The notes beneath the pieces were generated by a model. The model saw only the letters and a program-made list of their open reading frames with translations, did no database searches and was not told the DNA's origin. A program made the translations under genes and the position numbers. This document shows positions 2,488 to 39,724 of a stretch of 39,724 bases of DNA, one piece after another (position 1 is the first letter of the stretch; the number at the start of each line of letters is the position of its first letter). Source of the stretch: a virus; the IMG/VR virus record IMGVR_UViG_3300031576_000153, positions 1-39,724 of that record; one strand, given 5' to 3'.

Positions 2488-4613
2488 TCTGGCTCGATCG
2501 CGTCAAGCGGCTATGGGGCGGCGCGACCGGCACGCAGCCCGAGTCCAGCGTTGCCACGGAAGCGCGCGTCGTCCCGCCCGCCGATACCGATCAGAACACC
2601 ATCACGCTCCCCGGGGTGTTCGAGGAAGAGGAAGAGCTCACTTACGGTCGCGCATTCGAGCTGGTGCCGTCGGTCTACCGCGCGGTGTCGCTGCTCTCGA
2701 CCAACATGGCGATGCTGCCGTTGCGGTTCTTCCGTTCCGACGACGACAGCAAGGAGTACCTCAAGCCGGGCGAGCACCCGATCGTAGACAAATGGCGCAA
2801 GCCGAACTCGATCGAGACCGACTTCCAGTTCATGGAAAAGCTGGAGGCGTCGCTCGACATCAACGGCAACGGCTACCTCTACGTCGAGCCGATCAAGGGC
2901 ATCGACGGACCCGACGTTGACCTGAACGTGTTGCCGGCGCATCTGACGAATCCGGTCTGGATCAAGGGCCGGCTGTCGCACTACGCGCTGCGATGGCACG
3001 GGCGCGAGATCAGGCTCGACAAGGATCTCGTCATCCACATCCCGCTGTTCTCGCCAGCATGGGGCCGGAAGGGCATGAGCCCGCTCTCCTCGGCCGGGCT
3101 CGCGTTCCGCACCCAGCGTCTGTCGCAGCGGTGGGTCCACGCGCTCTACCTGCGCGGCGGCGAGGCCACCGGGCACCTGGAATCCGAGACCGGGATCTCG
3201 GCTGAGAAGCGGCGTCGCTTGGAGCTTCAGCTCCGCAAGCGAAACCAGGGACCGGAGGGCTACAAAAACATCATCGCTCTGCCACCGGGAGTGAAGCAGA
3301 CGAAGACGATGCTCACGCCGCAGGAGCTTCAGTTCATCGACCAGTACAAGCTGACGAAGGGCGATGTGTACGAGGTGTATGGGATCCCGCCGTGGATGGT
3401 CGGGATCAAGGAAGGCGGCGGCCTAGGCGATGCCGGGTCGCGAACCGACGAGCGGCTGTTCTGGAAGAACACGATCGGCCCGCGGGCATCGAGAATCTCG
3501 CGGCTGATATCTGAGAGGCTCATCCCGCTCTTCGACGACACCGAAGGACTCGAATGCGAGTTCGATTTCTCCGGCGTCGAGGTGCTGAAGCTGATCCAGA
3601 TCGAGATCGCGAAGGAAGGGAAGAACGTCACCGGGAAGTCGTGCGTCACGGTGAACGAGTTCCGGACCAAGTACCTCAACCTGGAGCCGCTTGAAGGCGA
3701 GGAGTTCGACACGATCTCAACGCCGGATCCGTTCGGGTTCGGGCCGCCGCCAGCCAATCAGCCTCCACCTCCTACCGTAGACGACGCGCAGGATGAAGCA
3801 GCTCGACGTACAGCCTGGAAACGCGCGCACATCAATCGCCTCACCAGGCTGACGCGACCGATGGCCAGGGTGTGGGTAGAGATCTTCGAGCGACAAGAGA
3901 ACCGAGTGCTCGCGACGGTGAGGTCGGCCGACCTGCGAGCGGTTGGCGATGACTTTGATGCCGAGCAAGACGAGATCGCCTTGTTCATCAGAGCGGTCAC
4001 GGCGATCGTTCAGACGCAGGGGCCAGCGGCCCTGGCGGTGCTCGGCGTGGCCATCGACTTCGATCTCACCACCGCGTCCGTGCAGTGGTACATCCGGCAC
4101 CATGCGCAACGCACTATCGTCGGGACCACGGAAACCACGCGGGCGCTGCTTCGGGAACGCATCGCCGAGGTCCAGGCGCAGGGTGGCGGGCTAAACGAGA
4201 CGGCGAAGGCGGTGCGTGAGGTGTTCGAGCAACGGCGTGAGAACGCGCTCGATATCGCGCGGACCGAGGTGACGCCGGCCTACAACTTCGCGACCACCGA
4301 GGCATGGGAGCAGTCGGGCGTCGTGGAAGGCTCGCAATGGGTGGCCGTGGACGACGAGCGCACGAGGGAGGCGCACGCCGACGCGGATGGGCAGATCGTC
4401 CCGCTCGGGCAAGGGTTCGAGGTCGGGGGCGAGCTGCTGCGATTCCCAGGCGATCCGGCCGGTAGCGCCGAGAACGTGATCAACTGCCGCTGCGGGTTGC
4501 TGGCGGTTCTAGGGGCGCCGCAAGCGGGCCGAAATGGGCACGGGAAACTGCCAGACAGGCTCGCCAAGTACTTCGCGAAGGAGAGCATTGCGCGTGCGAT
4601 CCAATCGAGGTAG
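2484..4613 (+). CDS. Portal protein fused to MuF-type minor head domain
   Basis: About 709 residues. The first two thirds is an HK97-family portal, the dodecameric ring at the capsid vertex through which DNA enters and leaves: segments include PSVYRAVSLLSTNMA, GNGYLYVEPI, KGMSPLSSAGLAFRTQ, TPQELQFIDQYKLTKGDV and VYGIPPWMVGI. After a proline-rich linker (PPPANQPPPPTVDD) the last third is a MuF/SPP1 gp7-like domain with its hallmark pattern: ALDIARTEV...AYNFATTEAWEQ, WVAVDDERTREAHADADGQ, then FPGDPAGSAENVINCRCG. These are usually two separate adjacent genes. The start may be GTG 2484 (overlapping the previous TGA) or in-frame GTG 2463. Confidence 0.9.
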   Translation: MIWLDRVKRLWGGATGTQPESSVATEARVVPPADTDQNTITLPGVFEEEEELTYGRAFELVPSVYRAVSLLSTNMAMLPLRFFRSDDDSKEYLKPGEHPIVDKWRKPNSIETDFQFMEKLEASLDINGNGYLYVEPIKGIDGPDVDLNVLPAHLTNPVWIKGRLSHYALRWHGREIRLDKDLVIHIPLFSPAWGRKGMSPLSSAGLAFRTQRLSQRWVHALYLRGGEATGHLESETGISAEKRRRLELQLRKRNQGPEGYKNIIALPPGVKQTKTMLTPQELQFIDQYKLTKGDVYEVYGIPPWMVGIKEGGGLGDAGSRTDERLFWKNTIGPRASRISRLISERLIPLFDDTEGLECEFDFSGVEVLKLIQIEIAKEGKNVTGKSCVTVNEFRTKYLNLEPLEGEEFDTISTPDPFGFGPPPANQPPPPTVDDAQDEAARRTAWKRAHINRLTRLTRPMARVWVEIFERQENRVLATVRSADLRAVGDDFDAEQDEIALFIRAVTAIVQTQGPAALAVLGVAIDFDLTTASVQWYIRHHAQRTIVGTTETTRALLRERIAEVQAQGGGLNETAKAVREVFEQRRENALDIARTEVTPAYNFATTEAWEQSGVVEGSQWVAVDDERTREAHADADGQIVPLGQGFEVGGELLRFPGDPAGSAENVINCRCGLLAVLGAPQAGRNGHGKLPDRLAKYFAKESIARAIQSR

Positions 4614-4614
4614 G

Positions 4615-4788
4615 ATGCAGGTCCGCTGTAAGTGCGGGGCGACGGTGATCGTCAGCCCCAAGGAGCTCAAGGCGAAGTGCGAGGAGTGCGGGAGAACTGT
4701 CAGGCTAGGGATTAGGCGCGGCATCGAATCCGAACGTTCGGAGGAGAAGTGCGCAGGGATCTCAAGACCTGGCTTCAGGACGCACTGA
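4615..4788 (+). CDS. Small zinc-ribbon protein
   Basis: A 57-residue protein from ATG 4615, one base after the portal stop. It has two cysteine pairs about 20 residues apart, RCKCGATV and KCEECGRTV, the layout of a zinc ribbon. The last 40 bases overlap the next gene in another frame. Small zinc-ribbon proteins of this kind are common in phage structural operons but their job is generally unknown; it might bind nucleic acid or stabilise a head protein. The frame is open further upstream, but that part overlaps the portal gene and looks like its shadow. Confidence 0.6.
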   Translation: MQVRCKCGATVIVSPKELKAKCEECGRTVRLGIRRGIESERSEEKCAGISRPGFRTH

Positions 4789-5594
4789 AGCACCCGACCA
4801 CGGAATCGGTGGGGCGGCTGCTCGCGGACGAAGAGACCGCTGCAGAGCGCCTCGCGCCGCGGATGTCGAAGATCAACAAGATCGCGCTCGTCCCGCTCGG
4901 GCCTGACGATGTGTTCGTCAGGGGCGCCAACATCTGCAACAACGTGATCGACTACTACGACAGCCGATTCACGGAGAAAGCCCTCCGCCAGATCGCTCGC
5001 CTCATCCCCGGCGCCCCCATGACCCGCGGCCACCAGATGGATCATTGGGCTTACGCCGCGACCTTCGACGCCGACGTACTGGAGAACGAGAAGGCGAAGA
5101 GCCAGCGCCTCAAGGAGCTGCGCGATGTGGGGCTCGCCGATTGGGTGCGCGGGCTCTTCTTCTGGCCGAAGGCCGCGAGCTGGGCGAACGATCTTCGTGT
5201 GAGAATCGACGGCGGGCTCACACGCGAGGTCTCGGCGCACTGGAGGTTCGAGAAGGCCACGTGCTCGATCTGTTCCGAGGACATCCGCCGCTGCCCGCAC
5301 ATGCCGGGCGAGGAGTACGAGAACGCCGACAAGACGAAGAGTCGCTGTTTCTACGAGATGGAGCAGGTCACGGAGTACCTGGAGACCGGCTTCGTCGTGA
5401 GAGGCGGGCAAAAGAACACCGCGATTTGGGGACCAGGAATGGAAGAGGCGGCCGAACGAGTTCTGTTCGGTGAGGCGATCCGCGAGATCAAGTCGCGGAA
5501 GACGATGTGGGACGAGTGGAAGCGGTCCCTGGATCAGACGAACGGAACGGTGTCAGCCGCCGGTTGGCTCGGGCGTGGGCTCGGGCGTCGCTAG
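4749..5594 (+). CDS. Probable head maturation/prohead protease-like protein
   Basis: A 281-residue protein between portal and capsid, the standard position of the prohead protease or scaffold. Residues 85-100 (PGAPMTRGHQMDHWAY) are followed by a segment DGGLTREVSAHW and a cysteine/histidine cluster CSICSEDIRRCPHMPGEEY, then VTEYLETGFVVRGGQ. This layout (approach to the substrate, 'G...EVS', a C-x2-C...C-x-H-x-PG-x2-Y cluster, then an 'E...FV' strand) resembles phage head-maturation proteins I know from other capsid operons, but I cannot assign catalytic residues with certainty. The GTG 4749 start follows GGAGGAG at a very short distance. A general structural or decoration role is the main alternative. 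Confidence 0.5.
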   Translation: MRRDLKTWLQDALKHPTTESVGRLLADEETAAERLAPRMSKINKIALVPLGPDDVFVRGANICNNVIDYYDSRFTEKALRQIARLIPGAPMTRGHQMDHWAYAATFDADVLENEKAKSQRLKELRDVGLADWVRGLFFWPKAASWANDLRVRIDGGLTREVSAHWRFEKATCSICSEDIRRCPHMPGEEYENADKTKSRCFYEMEQVTEYLETGFVVRGGQKNTAIWGPGMEEAAERVLFGEAIREIKSRKTMWDEWKRSLDQTNGTVSAAGWLGRGLGRR

Positions 5595-7386: not shown

Positions 7387-7770
7387 ATGACAGAGAACCA
7401 GCCGACGTCGGCTGCGGCTGCCGCAGCGGCCACCGCACCGCAGCCACTCGACCCGGCGACCACGGTGTTCATGCACTTCGTTGGCGAAGAGTACCGAGGC
7501 AACGACTCGGGTGACGGGAAGTTCGTCCGGGCGATCAGGGGCGAAGTGGTCGCGATGACCCACAAGAACGCGATGCGGGTGCTGGCAGACTTTCCAGACG
7601 AGTGGAAGGAGTCATCGAAGGGCGACTTCGAGAAGAGCGAGGCGAAACGCCGCGATGCGGAGAACAAGCGACGCGAGGCGCTCGCGAAGCGCGAGACGGC
7701 CGATGAGGCGCGGGCGAAGCGCCGTGCGCTACGGGAGTCAACCGGAGAAGCCGACGAGGACGAGGGGTAG
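7387..7770 (+). CDS. Hypothetical head-region protein
   Basis: A 127-residue protein starting at ATG 7387, 7 bases after GGAGGT. It has an alanine-rich start (SAAAAAAATAPQPLDP), a compact middle (residues 25-70) that looks like a small beta domain (TVFMHFVGEEYRG...FVRAIRGEVVAM), and a highly charged helical C-terminus full of KRR, EAL and DEA. Located between capsid and head-tail connector, it may be a capsid decoration or head-completion protein. No family recognised. Confidence 0.7.
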   Translation: MTENQPTSAAAAAAATAPQPLDPATTVFMHFVGEEYRGNDSGDGKFVRAIRGEVVAMTHKNAMRVLADFPDEWKESSKGDFEKSEAKRRDAENKRREALAKRETADEARAKRRALRESTGEADEDEG

Positions 7771-25713: not shown

Positions 25714-26804
25714 GCGAGGAAAGAGGGATCCAGAGAGTCAACATGCCGGCCTGGGCACTGGAGGCCCTGGAGCCGTTCATGGGGAGAGAGGACATCAACC
25801 TCGTCCTGCCCTCAATCCCGGTGAACGCCCAGCTCGGCTTCGCGCAGGTGCCGACTGTGAGCATCGTCAGGGTCTCGCCCGACCCACAGAAGGGCGAGGT
25901 GTACAAGGTCGGAGCGCGCAAGAGCGCGGCCGGGCAATGGGAGAACCTCTACGCGCTGGGGAAGACTGCGCTCGACCGGCTGGGGTCCGCGGCCGGCGTG
26001 GTCTTCAACACGGTCAGGGTAGACAAGCGCGAAAACCCGGGCCGCTGCGAGTTCGCATGCCAGATCGCGGTGAAGAATGAGTCCGGCGTTCCAGTGATGA
26101 AGGTCTACCACAAGGAGCTGGACATCACGGTCGTCACTGAAGCCCGACGCCAGGAGCGGCAGGCGGCGAACGAGAAGGCGAAGGCTGGAGACAGGGTGTC
26201 TCCGGAGAAGCTGGAAGCCGACCTGGCGAACGAGATGGCGCAGTTCAAGAAGCACATCGTCGCCCGCTGCGAGACGGGAGCCATCAACCGCGGGATCCGT
26301 GGGCTGCTCGCGATCAAGTCGCAGTGGACCGCGACGGAGATCGGGCGGCCGTTCGTGGTGATGCGAACCGACTTCAGGCCGACGCCGGCCAACGCAGCCG
26401 AGCGCATGCTGATGCTGAAGATGGGCTATCAGTCGGCGATCCAGCCGCTCTACGGGCCGGAGATCGAAGAGACCATGCGGGCGCCACGGGCTTCGACGAC
26501 ATCCGAGGCGACCGTCATTCCTGACGACAACCTCGGGCACGATGACGAGGCGCCGCCTGACGACACGGAAGATCCCCCACCCGCTGCCACAGTGCCCGTC
26601 ACGCCCACAACGGCCGCGCCGAAACCAACACCTCAACCTCGGGCCGACGACGAGCTCAAGGAGATGTGTGAAGAGGCGTTCAGGGCGCTGGCGATCGGAC
26701 CGGCCGAGAAGGCGAAGCTGCTGGTCGCGAACGATTTCATCTACGGCAAGGTCTTCGATGCGCTGACAGAGATCGCCCACGAGCGCAGAAAGGCTGCGCC
26801 ATGA
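25710..26804 (+). CDS. Unknown 364-residue protein, possible recombination/ssDNA partner
   Basis: Starts at GTG 25710 overlapping the previous stop, with GGGAGG 5 bases before. Residues 1-150 form an alpha/beta domain (LVLPSIPVNAQLGFAQVPTV, KGEVYKVGARKSAAGQWE). A charged coil follows, then ETGAINRGIRGLLAIKSQWTATEIGRPFVV, a layout ('alNRaiR...l....w...el..PFvv') that recalls single-strand annealing and recombination-mediator proteins, though this is not a firm match. A proline/acidic linker (about 245-295) precedes a C-terminal helical region (DELKEMCEEAFRALAI). Located immediately upstream of the SbcD-SbcC fusion with ATGA overlap, it may load or modify DNA ends. Confidence 0.6.
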   Translation: MSEERGIQRVNMPAWALEALEPFMGREDINLVLPSIPVNAQLGFAQVPTVSIVRVSPDPQKGEVYKVGARKSAAGQWENLYALGKTALDRLGSAAGVVFNTVRVDKRENPGRCEFACQIAVKNESGVPVMKVYHKELDITVVTEARRQERQAANEKAKAGDRVSPEKLEADLANEMAQFKKHIVARCETGAINRGIRGLLAIKSQWTATEIGRPFVVMRTDFRPTPANAAERMLMLKMGYQSAIQPLYGPEIEETMRAPRASTTSEATVIPDDNLGHDDEAPPDDTEDPPPAATVPVTPTTAAPKPTPQPRADDELKEMCEEAFRALAIGPAEKAKLLVANDFIYGKVFDALTEIAHERRKAAP

Positions 26805-29800
26805 TGTCAGGGATCCTCCACTTCGCAGACCTGCACCTCGACGACAGCACCGAGGTCAACGCGAGCAAGGCGATGGCGCAGATGCTGGAGATCGCCCACG
26901 AGCGCAAGCCGGCCCTGATCGTGAACGCCGGCGACCTGGTGGTCAGGCGCGGCACGCTAAGGCCGTGGGTCGCTTACCAGCTCAGGCGGTTCCACAACGC
27001 GCTGGCGGACGTGGCTCCGGTTCTGGTCGTGGCTGGCAACCATGACCTGGTGGGCGACGGCGGAATCGGCGTGGCGCTGGGTGCGCTCGGCGAGACACGC
27101 CACAACATCACCGTGGTTGAGGGGAAACCGGAGGTCGTCAGGATCGCCGGGTACGAGCTCGCCTGCCTTCCGTATCCGTCCGTCGCCTGGATGCGGGCGC
27201 ACGGCGAGAACGCTGGCGTAAGGATGAACGCACAGCACGCGTCGGAGCTGCTCGCGATGACGGTGAAGGTGCTCGCGGATCAGTGCCAGCCAGGTGCCAT
27301 CCTCGTCTACCACGGAACGGTTGCCGGGGCGACGCTCGGCGGCGAGAGACAGATGCTGACGGGCGACGACATCATGCTGGGAAGCGGCACGGTACGGCGA
27401 GCCGACTTCTACAAGGTCTTGGCCGGGCACATCCACAAGCCGCAGGTCTTGCACGTCTCGACGCCGGAGGTCTGCGTCTACTACCCAGGATCGTCGGCGC
27501 CGCTCGGGTTCGGCGAGGACCACGAGCACGGCCTCTGGTGGCACCCGGACGACGGCGACCCGCTGTTCATCACGCTCAAGCCGGTGCACAGGTTCGTCAC
27601 GATCGAGGTGAACCTGGAGAGCATGGACATGCCGCAGGCCGACGTGGAAGACGCGCTGGTTCGCGTGAAGGCCACTGCGTCCGCGTGGGCAGACGTTGGG
27701 AAGCACGTGCCGGCGATACGCGCAAACCTCAAGTCGTTCGGGGCTGCCAGCGTGCGCTTCGCGATCGAGAGGGCCGAACTGGAGATCCGGAAAGACCCGG
27801 GCGCCCCGGTGATCGAGAGAGTCGAGACCTTCACCGAGGCGCTCGGACGGTGGATCGAGCGAGAGAAGGCGCCACGCGATGCGGTGCTGGAGTTCATGGG
27901 CCAGGTCGAGCTAGGGATCCCTCCAGAAGCCAGAGCGTCCGGTGCCTACGCGCTCACGCAGGTGGGGTGCTCCGACTTCAAGAGCCTCGGCAATGGACCG
28001 TGGGTGCTCGACCTTGCGACCATGGGGAAGCTGGTTTGCATCGAGGGGCCGAACGCGAGCGGCAAGTCGAACATCACCGAGGTCGAGGCGTTCGCGCTCT
28101 GGGGCCGGCTACCGCGTGGCAGGACGAAACTCGAAGGGATCGTCAGGCGCGGGGCCTCGTCAGCGAAAGCATGGGTCGAGTTTCACGTCGCCGGCACGCA
28201 ATGGAAGGTCACGAGGACGGTAGAGACGAGAGGAGCAAGCACCTACTCGACTCTGACATTGCTTGCGCGCGGAGTGGCTCCTACCACGGAATGGTTCCCG
28301 GCAGGTGGGAACAGCGCGGCCGAGACTCAGGAGAAGATTAACGCGCTGGCCGGCTCGTTCGAGCTCTACCTGTCGACGCGATACGCCGGGCAGGGCGACA
28401 TCGACCGGCTGCTCAAGTTCACGCCCGCCGAAACGAAGGACGCGCTGGTCGAGGCGCTCGGGCTCGGCGTGTTCGATCTGAGGCTCGCGAAGGCCAAGGC
28501 GCTCATCACGCCGCTTACGTTCAAGATCCACGGCCTACGCGGCGAGATCGCTGGAATGGAGCAGACCGATGACGTGATGGAGGCCATGATCGAAAAAGTG
28601 AACGCTGCCCGCTTCGGTGTTGCCGCCAAGGCTGCGGCGATCGTTGAACAGGAGCTCGGGCTCGAAGGTGTGCGCGCGAAGCTGGAACGCGCGGTTGCCG
28701 CGTCGGCTGCGCAGGAAGCAGCTCGCAACGCGGCAGAGGGAAGGAAAACCAAAGCGAGCCAGGCGTACGTGGCCGCAACGGGCAGGCTGGCAAGGCTACG
28801 GGGTGAACTGGAACGAAGGAGGGCGGTCTCGGCGAAGGGGCTTCAGAACGCACTACAGGACGAGACGAACGCAGCCATGAGCTGGGCCAAAACGCTCGAT
28901 GGGTACCGGCGAGGACTGATCCAGGAGCACCGCAGGGCCGAACTGGAAACGGATTCCTTGACGAAACAGTCCTCTGTGAGTCCGCCGTTCGGGGAGCAGT
29001 GCTTCGCGGCCGAGTGCGGGTTCTTGAAGTTGGCGCAGGCAGCGCGCCAACGGCTCGCAGCGGGTGTCGAGAGCAGGGCCAGCGTGATCGAGCAGGAAAT
29101 AGTCGCTGCCGAAGAGGACCAGCGGAAGGGGATCGAGCTCCACGCCGCCCTGGTCGCTGAAGCGCATGCAGCCCTCGATGCGTCGGTGGGCGACGATGGC
29201 GGTCTACCGGAGGCAAATAACGAACAGGCAGCAGCCCTGGCAGAGCTCGATGCGGCGAAAGCCGAGACCGCAACGCTGGTTGACTACGGACTCGACACCC
29301 ATCGCACGAGCGTGGTGCAGGGAGAGCGCGCGGTTCGCTTCGCACGCCAGGAACACGATGAGGCGATGGAGCTCCTAGTCAGGTCGAAGGCGATGGTCGA
29401 AGCAGCGATCGCCAGGAACGAGAAAGCGGAGGAGCTGAGGACGACGCTTGGACTCAAAGAGGCCGATCTTGAGGGGGCCACGTTCTACGCGAAGGCGGTG
29501 GGGCGCGAGGGGATTCCATACGACCAGATGGCGGCGGCGCTGCCATCGATCGAGCGGTGGGCGAACACGTTTCTCGGGACCGAGGAGCTGAGGGTCGAAA
29601 TCGCTCCGTTCGCCGAACGGCAGAGCGGAAAGACGGCGCCAGAGGTCGTGATCTCGTACCGGAACGGCTTCGGACTTCACGGGCTATCGGCCGTCTCCGG
29701 GTACGAAGGCGTCGCGATCGGCTACGCGCTAAGGGCGGCACTGGCGCGAGTGCAGGCCGACAGCCAGGGGTTGGAGTTATCCCACTGGTACGCGGACGAG

Positions 29801-29983
29801 GGTTGGGGCGTGTTCGACGAGTCGAACCTGATACTCGGCCGGGACATGCTGACCAGGCTTGCAGAGCAGTTCGGACAGGTGTTCTATGTTTCACATCAGG
29901 CGCCGATCAGGGAGGTAGCTGACACACGTATCGTGATCGAACCAGACTTCGATGAAGGCAGTTCGGTGAGCGTCGTTTCATAA
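26801..29983 (+). CDS. Single-chain SbcD-SbcC (Mre11-Rad50-like) nuclease/ATPase fusion
   Basis: A 1060-residue protein joining two normally separate subunits. Residues 1-400: SbcD/Mre11 phosphodiesterase, with HFADLHLDD (D10, H12), NAGDLV (D45), AGNHD (N80-H81-D82), VYHGT (H171) and AGHIHK (H210, H212), all metal-binding motifs present. Residues 401-1060: SbcC/Rad50 ATPase, with Walker A GPNASGKSN (416-424), long coiled coils, a CFAAEC pair at 734-739 at the expected hook position, signature-like AVSGYEGVAIG (S966-G967), and Walker B WYADEGWG (D999, E1000). It processes double-strand ends and hairpins. Most phages encode the two as separate genes (T4 gp47/gp46). It starts by ATGA overlap. 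Confidence 0.92.
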   Translation: MMSGILHFADLHLDDSTEVNASKAMAQMLEIAHERKPALIVNAGDLVVRRGTLRPWVAYQLRRFHNALADVAPVLVVAGNHDLVGDGGIGVALGALGETRHNITVVEGKPEVVRIAGYELACLPYPSVAWMRAHGENAGVRMNAQHASELLAMTVKVLADQCQPGAILVYHGTVAGATLGGERQMLTGDDIMLGSGTVRRADFYKVLAGHIHKPQVLHVSTPEVCVYYPGSSAPLGFGEDHEHGLWWHPDDGDPLFITLKPVHRFVTIEVNLESMDMPQADVEDALVRVKATASAWADVGKHVPAIRANLKSFGAASVRFAIERAELEIRKDPGAPVIERVETFTEALGRWIEREKAPRDAVLEFMGQVELGIPPEARASGAYALTQVGCSDFKSLGNGPWVLDLATMGKLVCIEGPNASGKSNITEVEAFALWGRLPRGRTKLEGIVRRGASSAKAWVEFHVAGTQWKVTRTVETRGASTYSTLTLLARGVAPTTEWFPAGGNSAAETQEKINALAGSFELYLSTRYAGQGDIDRLLKFTPAETKDALVEALGLGVFDLRLAKAKALITPLTFKIHGLRGEIAGMEQTDDVMEAMIEKVNAARFGVAAKAAAIVEQELGLEGVRAKLERAVAASAAQEAARNAAEGRKTKASQAYVAATGRLARLRGELERRRAVSAKGLQNALQDETNAAMSWAKTLDGYRRGLIQEHRRAELETDSLTKQSSVSPPFGEQCFAAECGFLKLAQAARQRLAAGVESRASVIEQEIVAAEEDQRKGIELHAALVAEAHAALDASVGDDGGLPEANNEQAAALAELDAAKAETATLVDYGLDTHRTSVVQGERAVRFARQEHDEAMELLVRSKAMVEAAIARNEKAEELRTTLGLKEADLEGATFYAKAVGREGIPYDQMAAALPSIERWANTFLGTEELRVEIAPFAERQSGKTAPEVVISYRNGFGLHGLSAVSGYEGVAIGYALRAALARVQADSQGLELSHWYADEGWGVFDESNLILGRDMLTRLAEQFGQVFYVSHQAPIREVADTRIVIEPDFDEGSSVSVVS

Positions 29984-36699: not shown

Positions 36700-36943
36700 C
36701 TTGGTACGGTTGTTCTGGTCAAAGTTTCTGAGGGAGTCGACGAAGAACGACGGACAGATCACCGGCTGGCGGTTCTGGTGGGACCGGGCGACCGACGACG
36801 CGCGGCGGATCGCCGTGTACCATGAGGCGCTGGCGCTGAAAGACGGCACCGAGGAAGGCGTGGCGCGCGAGGCCGACGCGCTACACGAATCGCTCAAGCA
36901 CGCGAAGCCGAGAGAGGCGAACGCGCTGTTCGGAGACTGGTGA
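36674..36943 (+). CDS. Small protein after the replication initiator
   Basis: An 89-residue protein whose ATG overlaps the last 26 bases of the initiator gene. Helical and aromatic: RLFWSKFLRESTKNDGQ, WRFWWDRATDDARRIAVY, then an acidic helix (KDGTEEGVAREADALHESL). By its place next to the initiator it might assist replication, but there is no recognised domain. Its stop overlaps the next start (GTGATGATG). Confidence 0.6.
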   Translation: MPAAKSRDDLVRLFWSKFLRESTKNDGQITGWRFWWDRATDDARRIAVYHEALALKDGTEEGVAREADALHESLKHAKPREANALFGDW

Positions 36944-37278
36944 TGATGACAGAAACCTGGATCGCGTCGACGCCGCAGCGCATCGTTCTCCGGCACAACG
37001 GGAAGTACATCGAGCTGCCAACGCTGGACCGCGAGGTGCACCGAGTCATCAAGATCGCGATGAACGCAAAGCCAGAAGAGTACGTCCGCCGCGCGGCCGC
37101 TGGTGAGCTGATCAGGATCGCGACCTTCGAGGTGGACGAGGACATGACCGCGATCCACGGTGGCGGCGCGATCGTGTTCTACGCTATGCTGCACGAGAGG
37201 GATGAGCTGGCCCCCGTCGCGCCGCCAGGCAAGCGGTGGGCCATGCAGCCGACCAAGGAGGTCAAGGTATGGCGCTAA
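36940..37278 (+). CDS. Hypothetical protein
   Basis: A 112-residue protein with three successive possible starts (GTG 36940, ATG 36943, ATG 36946) following GGAG. Beta-rich N-terminus (TPQRIVLRHNGKYIELPTL), a helical middle (VHRVIKIAMNAKPEEYVRR) and FEVDEDMTAIHGGGAIVFYAM. No known family. The last 10 bases overlap the CsrA gene. Confidence 0.6.
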   Translation: MMMTETWIASTPQRIVLRHNGKYIELPTLDREVHRVIKIAMNAKPEEYVRRAAAGELIRIATFEVDEDMTAIHGGGAIVFYAMLHERDELAPVAPPGKRWAMQPTKEVKVWR

Positions 37279-37448
37279 TCCTGACGCGAAAGTTCGGCCA
37301 GAGCATCATCATTGGCGGCAACGTCAAGGTGACGGTGTACAGCAAGGGCAGCAACGAGCACGGCCAGGTGAAGGTCGCGATCGAGGCGCCGCCAGAGGTG
37401 CCGATCATTCGCGAAGAGCTACGGCAGCGAGACGCTGGGCAGAAGTAA
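37269..37448 (+). CDS. csrA: CsrA-family RNA-binding regulator, phage-encoded
   Basis: A 59-residue protein of normal CsrA length, starting at ATG 37269 after AAGGAGGT. It matches CsrA/RsmA end to end: MALILTRKFGQSIIIGG (strand 1 with L5 and R7), VKVTVYSKGSN, QVKVAIEAPPEVPIIREEL (R48, corresponding to the RNA-contact Arg of the VHREE motif). CsrA dimers bind GGA motifs in the leaders of mRNAs and block or stabilise translation. In the host it controls metabolism, motility and biofilm. A phage copy could redirect host translation or regulate phage mRNA. It lies in the replication/accessory block. Confidence 0.88.
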   Translation: MALILTRKFGQSIIIGGNVKVTVYSKGSNEHGQVKVAIEAPPEVPIIREELRQRDAGQK

Positions 37449-39562: not shown

Positions 39563-39724
39563 AGCTCGCGACCAAGATCGGCAAGGACGGCAACCAGATT
39601 GCGTTTGCGATCATGCTCACGCCGAAGGACAAGGAAAACATCGCTTCGATGGCCGAGGACGCCACGATCTACTGCACGTTCTACGACGACCAGGATCCGG
39701 CGGAGATCGCGGAGATCGAGGACT
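39559..39724 (+). CDS. Small protein crossing the genome join (5' part)
   Basis: ATG 39559 overlaps the nuclease stop (ATGA). The frame reads KLATKIGKDGNQIAFAIMLTP and continues at position 1, so the complete product of 84 residues is formed only in the circular molecule (see the entry at 1-216). The window ends inside the gene. Confidence 0.8.
   Translation, partial: MKLATKIGKDGNQIAFAIMLTPKDKENIASMAEDATIYCTFYDDQDPAEIAEIED
39598..39724. repeat. Direct terminal repeat, right copy (circular closure)
   Basis: Identical to 1-127. See the left copy. Confidence 0.95.

Follow-up and report, generated by a model that had tools for sequence, protein, structure and literature searches.

Homologues of the bacterial regulator CsrA have been described in tailed phages since at least 2020, when csrA was reported in 30 of 2517 phages (PMC7366521). 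In 2021, phage CsrA/RsmA homologues were proposed to act as anti-CRISPR factors (Campa et al.), and in 2025 phage PTXU04 was found to form smaller plaques when its csrA homologue was knocked down (PMC11879866). One peptide of the JC1 CsrA has additionally been recovered from virions (PMC9144972); the literature considered also included PMC8450108 and PMC13418256. In the portions of this literature surveyed, the PTXU04 plaque phenotype constitutes the sole functional data on a phage csrA, and no demonstrated target of a phage CsrA is named. Autoregulation of a phage csrA was likewise absent from the results of our literature search, the coverage of which leaves out many journals.

The window analysed here is the entire IMG/VR virus record IMGVR_UViG_3300031576_000153 (39,724 nucleotides), in which we identified a csrA-family gene that is real, correctly identified and ordinary, with one testable detail, a candidate self-binding hairpin. 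As in phages F116, phi297, DC1/JC1, PTXU04 (gp28) and Vibrio phages, it is a CsrA-family gene lying among small tailed-phage genes, and its product is about 38–46 % identical to these homologues (figures that leave out DC1/JC1). The lineages to which those phages belong differ from that of the window phage.

Genomic context of the csrA-family gene

The features that define the locus are as follows.

37269–37448, + strand: csrA-like gene, 59 aa (identified by translation, PF02599, PHROG 9500 and an AlphaFold model matching CsrA/RsmA/RsmE)
36940–37278, + strand: upstream gene, the end of which shares 10 bases with the csrA start
580–2145, + strand: terminase large subunit (PHROG 2, E 7e-27), our query for related phages
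39598–39724, no strand: exact copy of the first 127 bases of the window, marking a complete circular or terminally redundant genome

The csrA frame, which runs from an ATG through 59 codons to a TAA, occupies positions 37269–37448 exactly. We regard it as a credible gene because it is preceded by the Shine–Dalgarno (SD) sequence AAGGAGG (37255–37261) and has a third-position GC content of 0.85 in a genome of 63 % GC. Translational coupling to the overlapping upstream gene is possible; Pfam and PHROG searches returned no match for that gene, nor for the other genes neighbouring csrA, which are small. Scans of the window for tRNAs and Rfam families were empty, and near csrA no promoter or terminator scored above chance. 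As a result of the terminal repeat, csrA can be placed ∼2.7 kb upstream of the terminase gene on a circular map, a position which distinguishes it from the csrA phages named above. Terminase, portal, head, tape-measure and endolysin genes were all found in the window, in agreement with the view of the earlier note that the CsrA-family protein is phage-borne. Elsewhere in the window (26801–29983), one 1060-aa frame encodes a metallophosphoesterase joined to an SMC/AAA part; we take this to resemble SbcD fused to SbcC, following SbcCD naming.

Family assignment, conserved residues and predicted fold

The 59-aa protein belongs securely to the CsrA superfamily. The match to PF02599 spans residues 3–54 and scores 59 bits, the cut-off being 27 (E 4e-16; 57.3 bits in a search of the whole record), PHROG 9500 ('CsrA-like regulator') matched with 59.4 bits (E 5e-16), and solved CsrA/RsmA chains were recovered by phmmer at E ∼1e-7. 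Family membership, as read from the letters alone in the earlier note, was thus borne out, as were the N-terminal LTRK strand (LILTRK) and the REE at residues 48–50 with its RNA-contact arginine; the alignment over the whole length that had also been claimed held for residues 3–54 of 59, with the C-terminal end falling short. Scores lay below the NCBIfam equivalog cut-offs (49.3 versus 70.1 bits for TIGR00202 and 47.6 versus 73 bits for NF002469), and for this reason we file the protein as CsrA-family rather than as a CsrA orthologue.

Residues L5, R7, I15, P41, R48 and E50 were invariant in 32 of 32 sequences, a set made up of the window protein together with others taken from viral contigs and from genomes. 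R48 aligns with R44 of Escherichia coli CsrA, which is stated to be indispensable for RNA binding (PMC7366521). An AlphaFold monomer model (pLDDT 86, pTM 0.65), the last block of which, at the C-terminal end, is of low confidence (pLDDT 64), retains the family fold: the first 14 Foldseek matches were all CsrA, RsmA or RsmE, at TM scores of 0.5–0.85 (about 0.8). With the CsrA/RsmA/RsmE proteins of Proteobacteria, to which it is about 41–44 % identical, the window protein has in common the fold, the LTR strand, the key arginine before EE and, presumably, the GGA-loop logic. It differs from canonical CsrA in having three extra loop residues before the QVKV strand, IGG in place of IGD (Gly for Asp), Lys for Arg in QVRxG, Ile for His before the key arginine, and a short C terminus. 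Judging from the sequence, the loop insertion and the three substitutions may alter affinity.

Proposed mode of action

On this basis, we think it probable that the divergent CsrA-family protein binds A-N-GGA motifs near ribosome-binding sites and thereby alters the translation of selected mRNAs. It would most likely do so as the usual dimer, which in this family is a homodimer with swapped strands. The main benefit to the phage would presumably be a retuning of host mRNAs for metabolism, surface structures or defence, with negative feedback potentially exerted through a hairpin over the protein's own ribosome-binding site. Points against a CsrA mechanism are the score below the equivalog cut-offs, the three-residue insertion and the changed residues. 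It is unlikely that the protein serves mainly to suppress host defence, for example by acting on cas mRNAs, as has been proposed for phage RsmA homologues. Campa et al. can be cited in its support; in the portion of that literature surveyed, the anti-CRISPR role has the standing of a proposal, no cas target is known for the phage studied here, and defence transcripts would in any case be among the targets open to the same CsrA mechanism.

A candidate self-binding hairpin at the csrA start

Two nested structures were found at the csrA start.

37251–37263, + strand: GACC-AAGGA-GGTC stem-loop with A-N-GGA in the loop, overlapping the csrA SD; candidate CsrA self-binding site
37240–37273, + strand: outer hairpin in which GCCATGC (37240–37246) pairs with GTATGGC (37267–37273), present in the minimum-energy and centroid folds; putative regulatory element

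The GTATGGC arm of the outer stem contains the csrA start codon. In sampled structures, the GGA of the SD lay in a hairpin loop with a probability of 0.98, whilst 5 of 400 flank shuffles reached 0.9, a figure of 1 % that is optimistic because the hairpin was noticed before being tested. Enclosure of the SD in a hairpin loop suggests that csrA is autoregulated through its own start, a hypothesis with precedent in bacteria, where CsrA is described as controlling itself via its own leader (reviewed in PMC4347634). Phage csrA genes being of a kind already known, self-control by this hairpin would possibly be the sole new detail.

Within the window, GACC-AAGGA-GGTC followed by ATG occurs once, at csrA. 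Among the csrA loci compared, L030, L031 and L173 likewise have the element where csrA begins, and L069 has a single copy at another position; L030 and L173 are not independent since, by contig names, they come from one host genome series. For a broader comparison we used the 103 viral leaders among 113 csrA leaders, including that of the window (L001) and leaving out 10 bacterial chromosome or genome loci, together with 589 controls. The latter were frames of ≥ 100 aa that begin with ATG and have an SD-like motif, and they may include some false starts. A-N-GGA coincided with the SD in 77 of the 103 csrA leaders versus 164 of 589 controls; given the motif, a stem of ≥ 4 was no commoner at viral csrA (8/77 versus 15/164, p 0.8). 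A structure score separated csrA leaders from controls at a threshold of 0.25 (19/99 versus 33/385, p 0.005) and gave p 0.65 at a threshold of 0.5 (8/99 versus 25/385). Upstream of the SD, A-N-GGA in csrA leaders was no different from controls. We accordingly rejected the idea of a csrA-specific hairpin at the ribosome-binding site across phages: viral csrA starts show no enrichment of the immediate A-N-GGA stem, and the exact element GACCAAGGAGGTC followed by ATG also stands before many phage genes other than csrA, with csrA accounting, among the matches listed, for 2 of 142 sites in 120 loci.

In two further contigs, GACC-AAGGA-GGTC precedes many genes, with 24 matches in G013 (130 kb; L343 and L344) and 15 in G012 (19 kb; L345). 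Over the part of G013 examined, 26 of 36 AAGGAGG-ATG starts have a stem of ≥ 4, and searches of both contigs for csrA gave no match. There, the hairpin has the look of a recurring start site, of a regulatory or an efficient kind, and it possibly serves a host CsrA-like protein.

A more elaborate proposal, which we hold to be doubtful, is that an altered-loop, phage-specialised CsrA limits its own synthesis via the start-codon hairpin, such that a fixed low dose would retune host translation rather than flood it. Phage CsrA is widespread. A divergent copy with a CsrA-like site at its own start offers a simple, small test system, suited to asking whether a phage CsrA binds RNA, whether it regulates itself and what effect it has on the host.

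GGA motifs in other leaders of the phage

The earlier note had further pointed to GGA in many leaders as a means of timing phage translation. The motif is indeed there, at 35 of 53 gene starts (surveyed from a hand-made list, in which two entries, near 7394 and 25701, are off start codons), but it is merely the SD consensus. A few window genes present GGA in a loop at the start, in the A-N-GGA form at csrA and at the starts near 7391, 29998 and 38410 and without the A at others, which would favour a CsrA that uses GGA hairpins in numerous leaders to control how the phage translates its own genes. Against this, A-N-GGA hairpins across the genome were at chance, with 15 observed versus 15.3 expected from dinucleotide shuffles, and those with stems of ≥ 5 numbered 6 versus 5.8 in shuffles. 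A phage-wide GGA-hairpin regulon was rejected on these counts, the timing role is not supported, and a CsrA-driven programme of this kind seems decidedly improbable.

Bacterial relatives and phylogeny

The closest bacterial proteins were CsrA paralogues of Planctomycetota (L185, L187 and L320; identities of 55 %, 51 % and 57 %), which have an AIEAPPEV stretch in common with the window protein. Unlike the window gene, these belong to a cellular multi-copy family. In a tree of 123 rows and 58 columns, the window protein grouped with the three Planctomycetota sequences (SH-aLRT 68), and with these plus L005 and L016 at SH-aLRT 83; neither grouping was starred. Comparison with bacterial CsrA, as recommended before our analysis, thus yielded a Planctomycetota grouping but did not settle the origin of the gene. 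When the terminase was sought in genomes, matches came from 2 of the 294 Planctomycetota genomes and from 1 of the 299 genomes of the Bacillus phylum; as these were weak and partial, no host is named. Two Planctomycetota MAGs (G034 and G035) contain 10 and 18 CsrA-family matches, respectively, a large expansion (loci L185, L187, L310, L311, L314, L315, L317 and L318) on which a literature search returned nothing on point.

Distribution of csrA among phages and related genomes

The earlier note held that few phages carry CsrA, a view that is weakened by our searches as well as by the published reports. A canonical CsrA query matched 86 of 50,697 phage records, and the divergent window query 65; these counts are slightly inflated because a few of the records in the phage collection are pieces of bacterial chromosome, among them L021 (CAKLQH020000034) and L027 (AGRM01000002), which have alaS near csrA. 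At least 544 of 600 IMG/VR candidate stretches encode CsrA, and 208 of 72,556 plasmid records matched it.

Using the terminase as query, we found eight relatives in IMG/VR, whilst a portal query found none there. The two closest (42 % and 43 % terminase identity; contigs of L005 and L012, the latter contig also bearing L018) carry csrA, and in L005 the gene lies upstream of the terminase on the same strand, as in the window. The remaining six, some of which are fragments, gave no csrA match. As the CsrA proteins of the two nearest relatives share only about 30 % identity with that of the window, csrA has either been kept over long divergence or been gained again. That csrA is a passenger picked up from a host, without selected function, is very improbable, for although only two of the eight terminase relatives carry it and the tree gives the window protein no firm place, the frame is intact, the invariant residues are retained, the SD is strong and both nearest relatives have a csrA of their own, albeit a divergent one.

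At L005 and L018, csrA stands beside genes that, by eye, we take to be ERF and YqaJ recombination genes; none was found adjoining the window csrA. Recombination genes are also near csrA in L003, phi297 and F116, and RecT/ERF, YqaJ-type or other exonuclease genes in L003, L005, L018, L024 and L025, which include several unrelated phages; the RecT/ERF and YqaJ-type names in L003, L005 and L018 are presumptive, having been given by eye. At most 5 of 67 csrA loci versus 0 of 74 controls showed such neighbours, and we do not claim an association because the counts are small and the controls had been selected on a different motif. In L003, the gene following csrA (4183–4995) encodes a long Cys-Ser-Asp/Tyr repeat protein of the CSYCSDC type.
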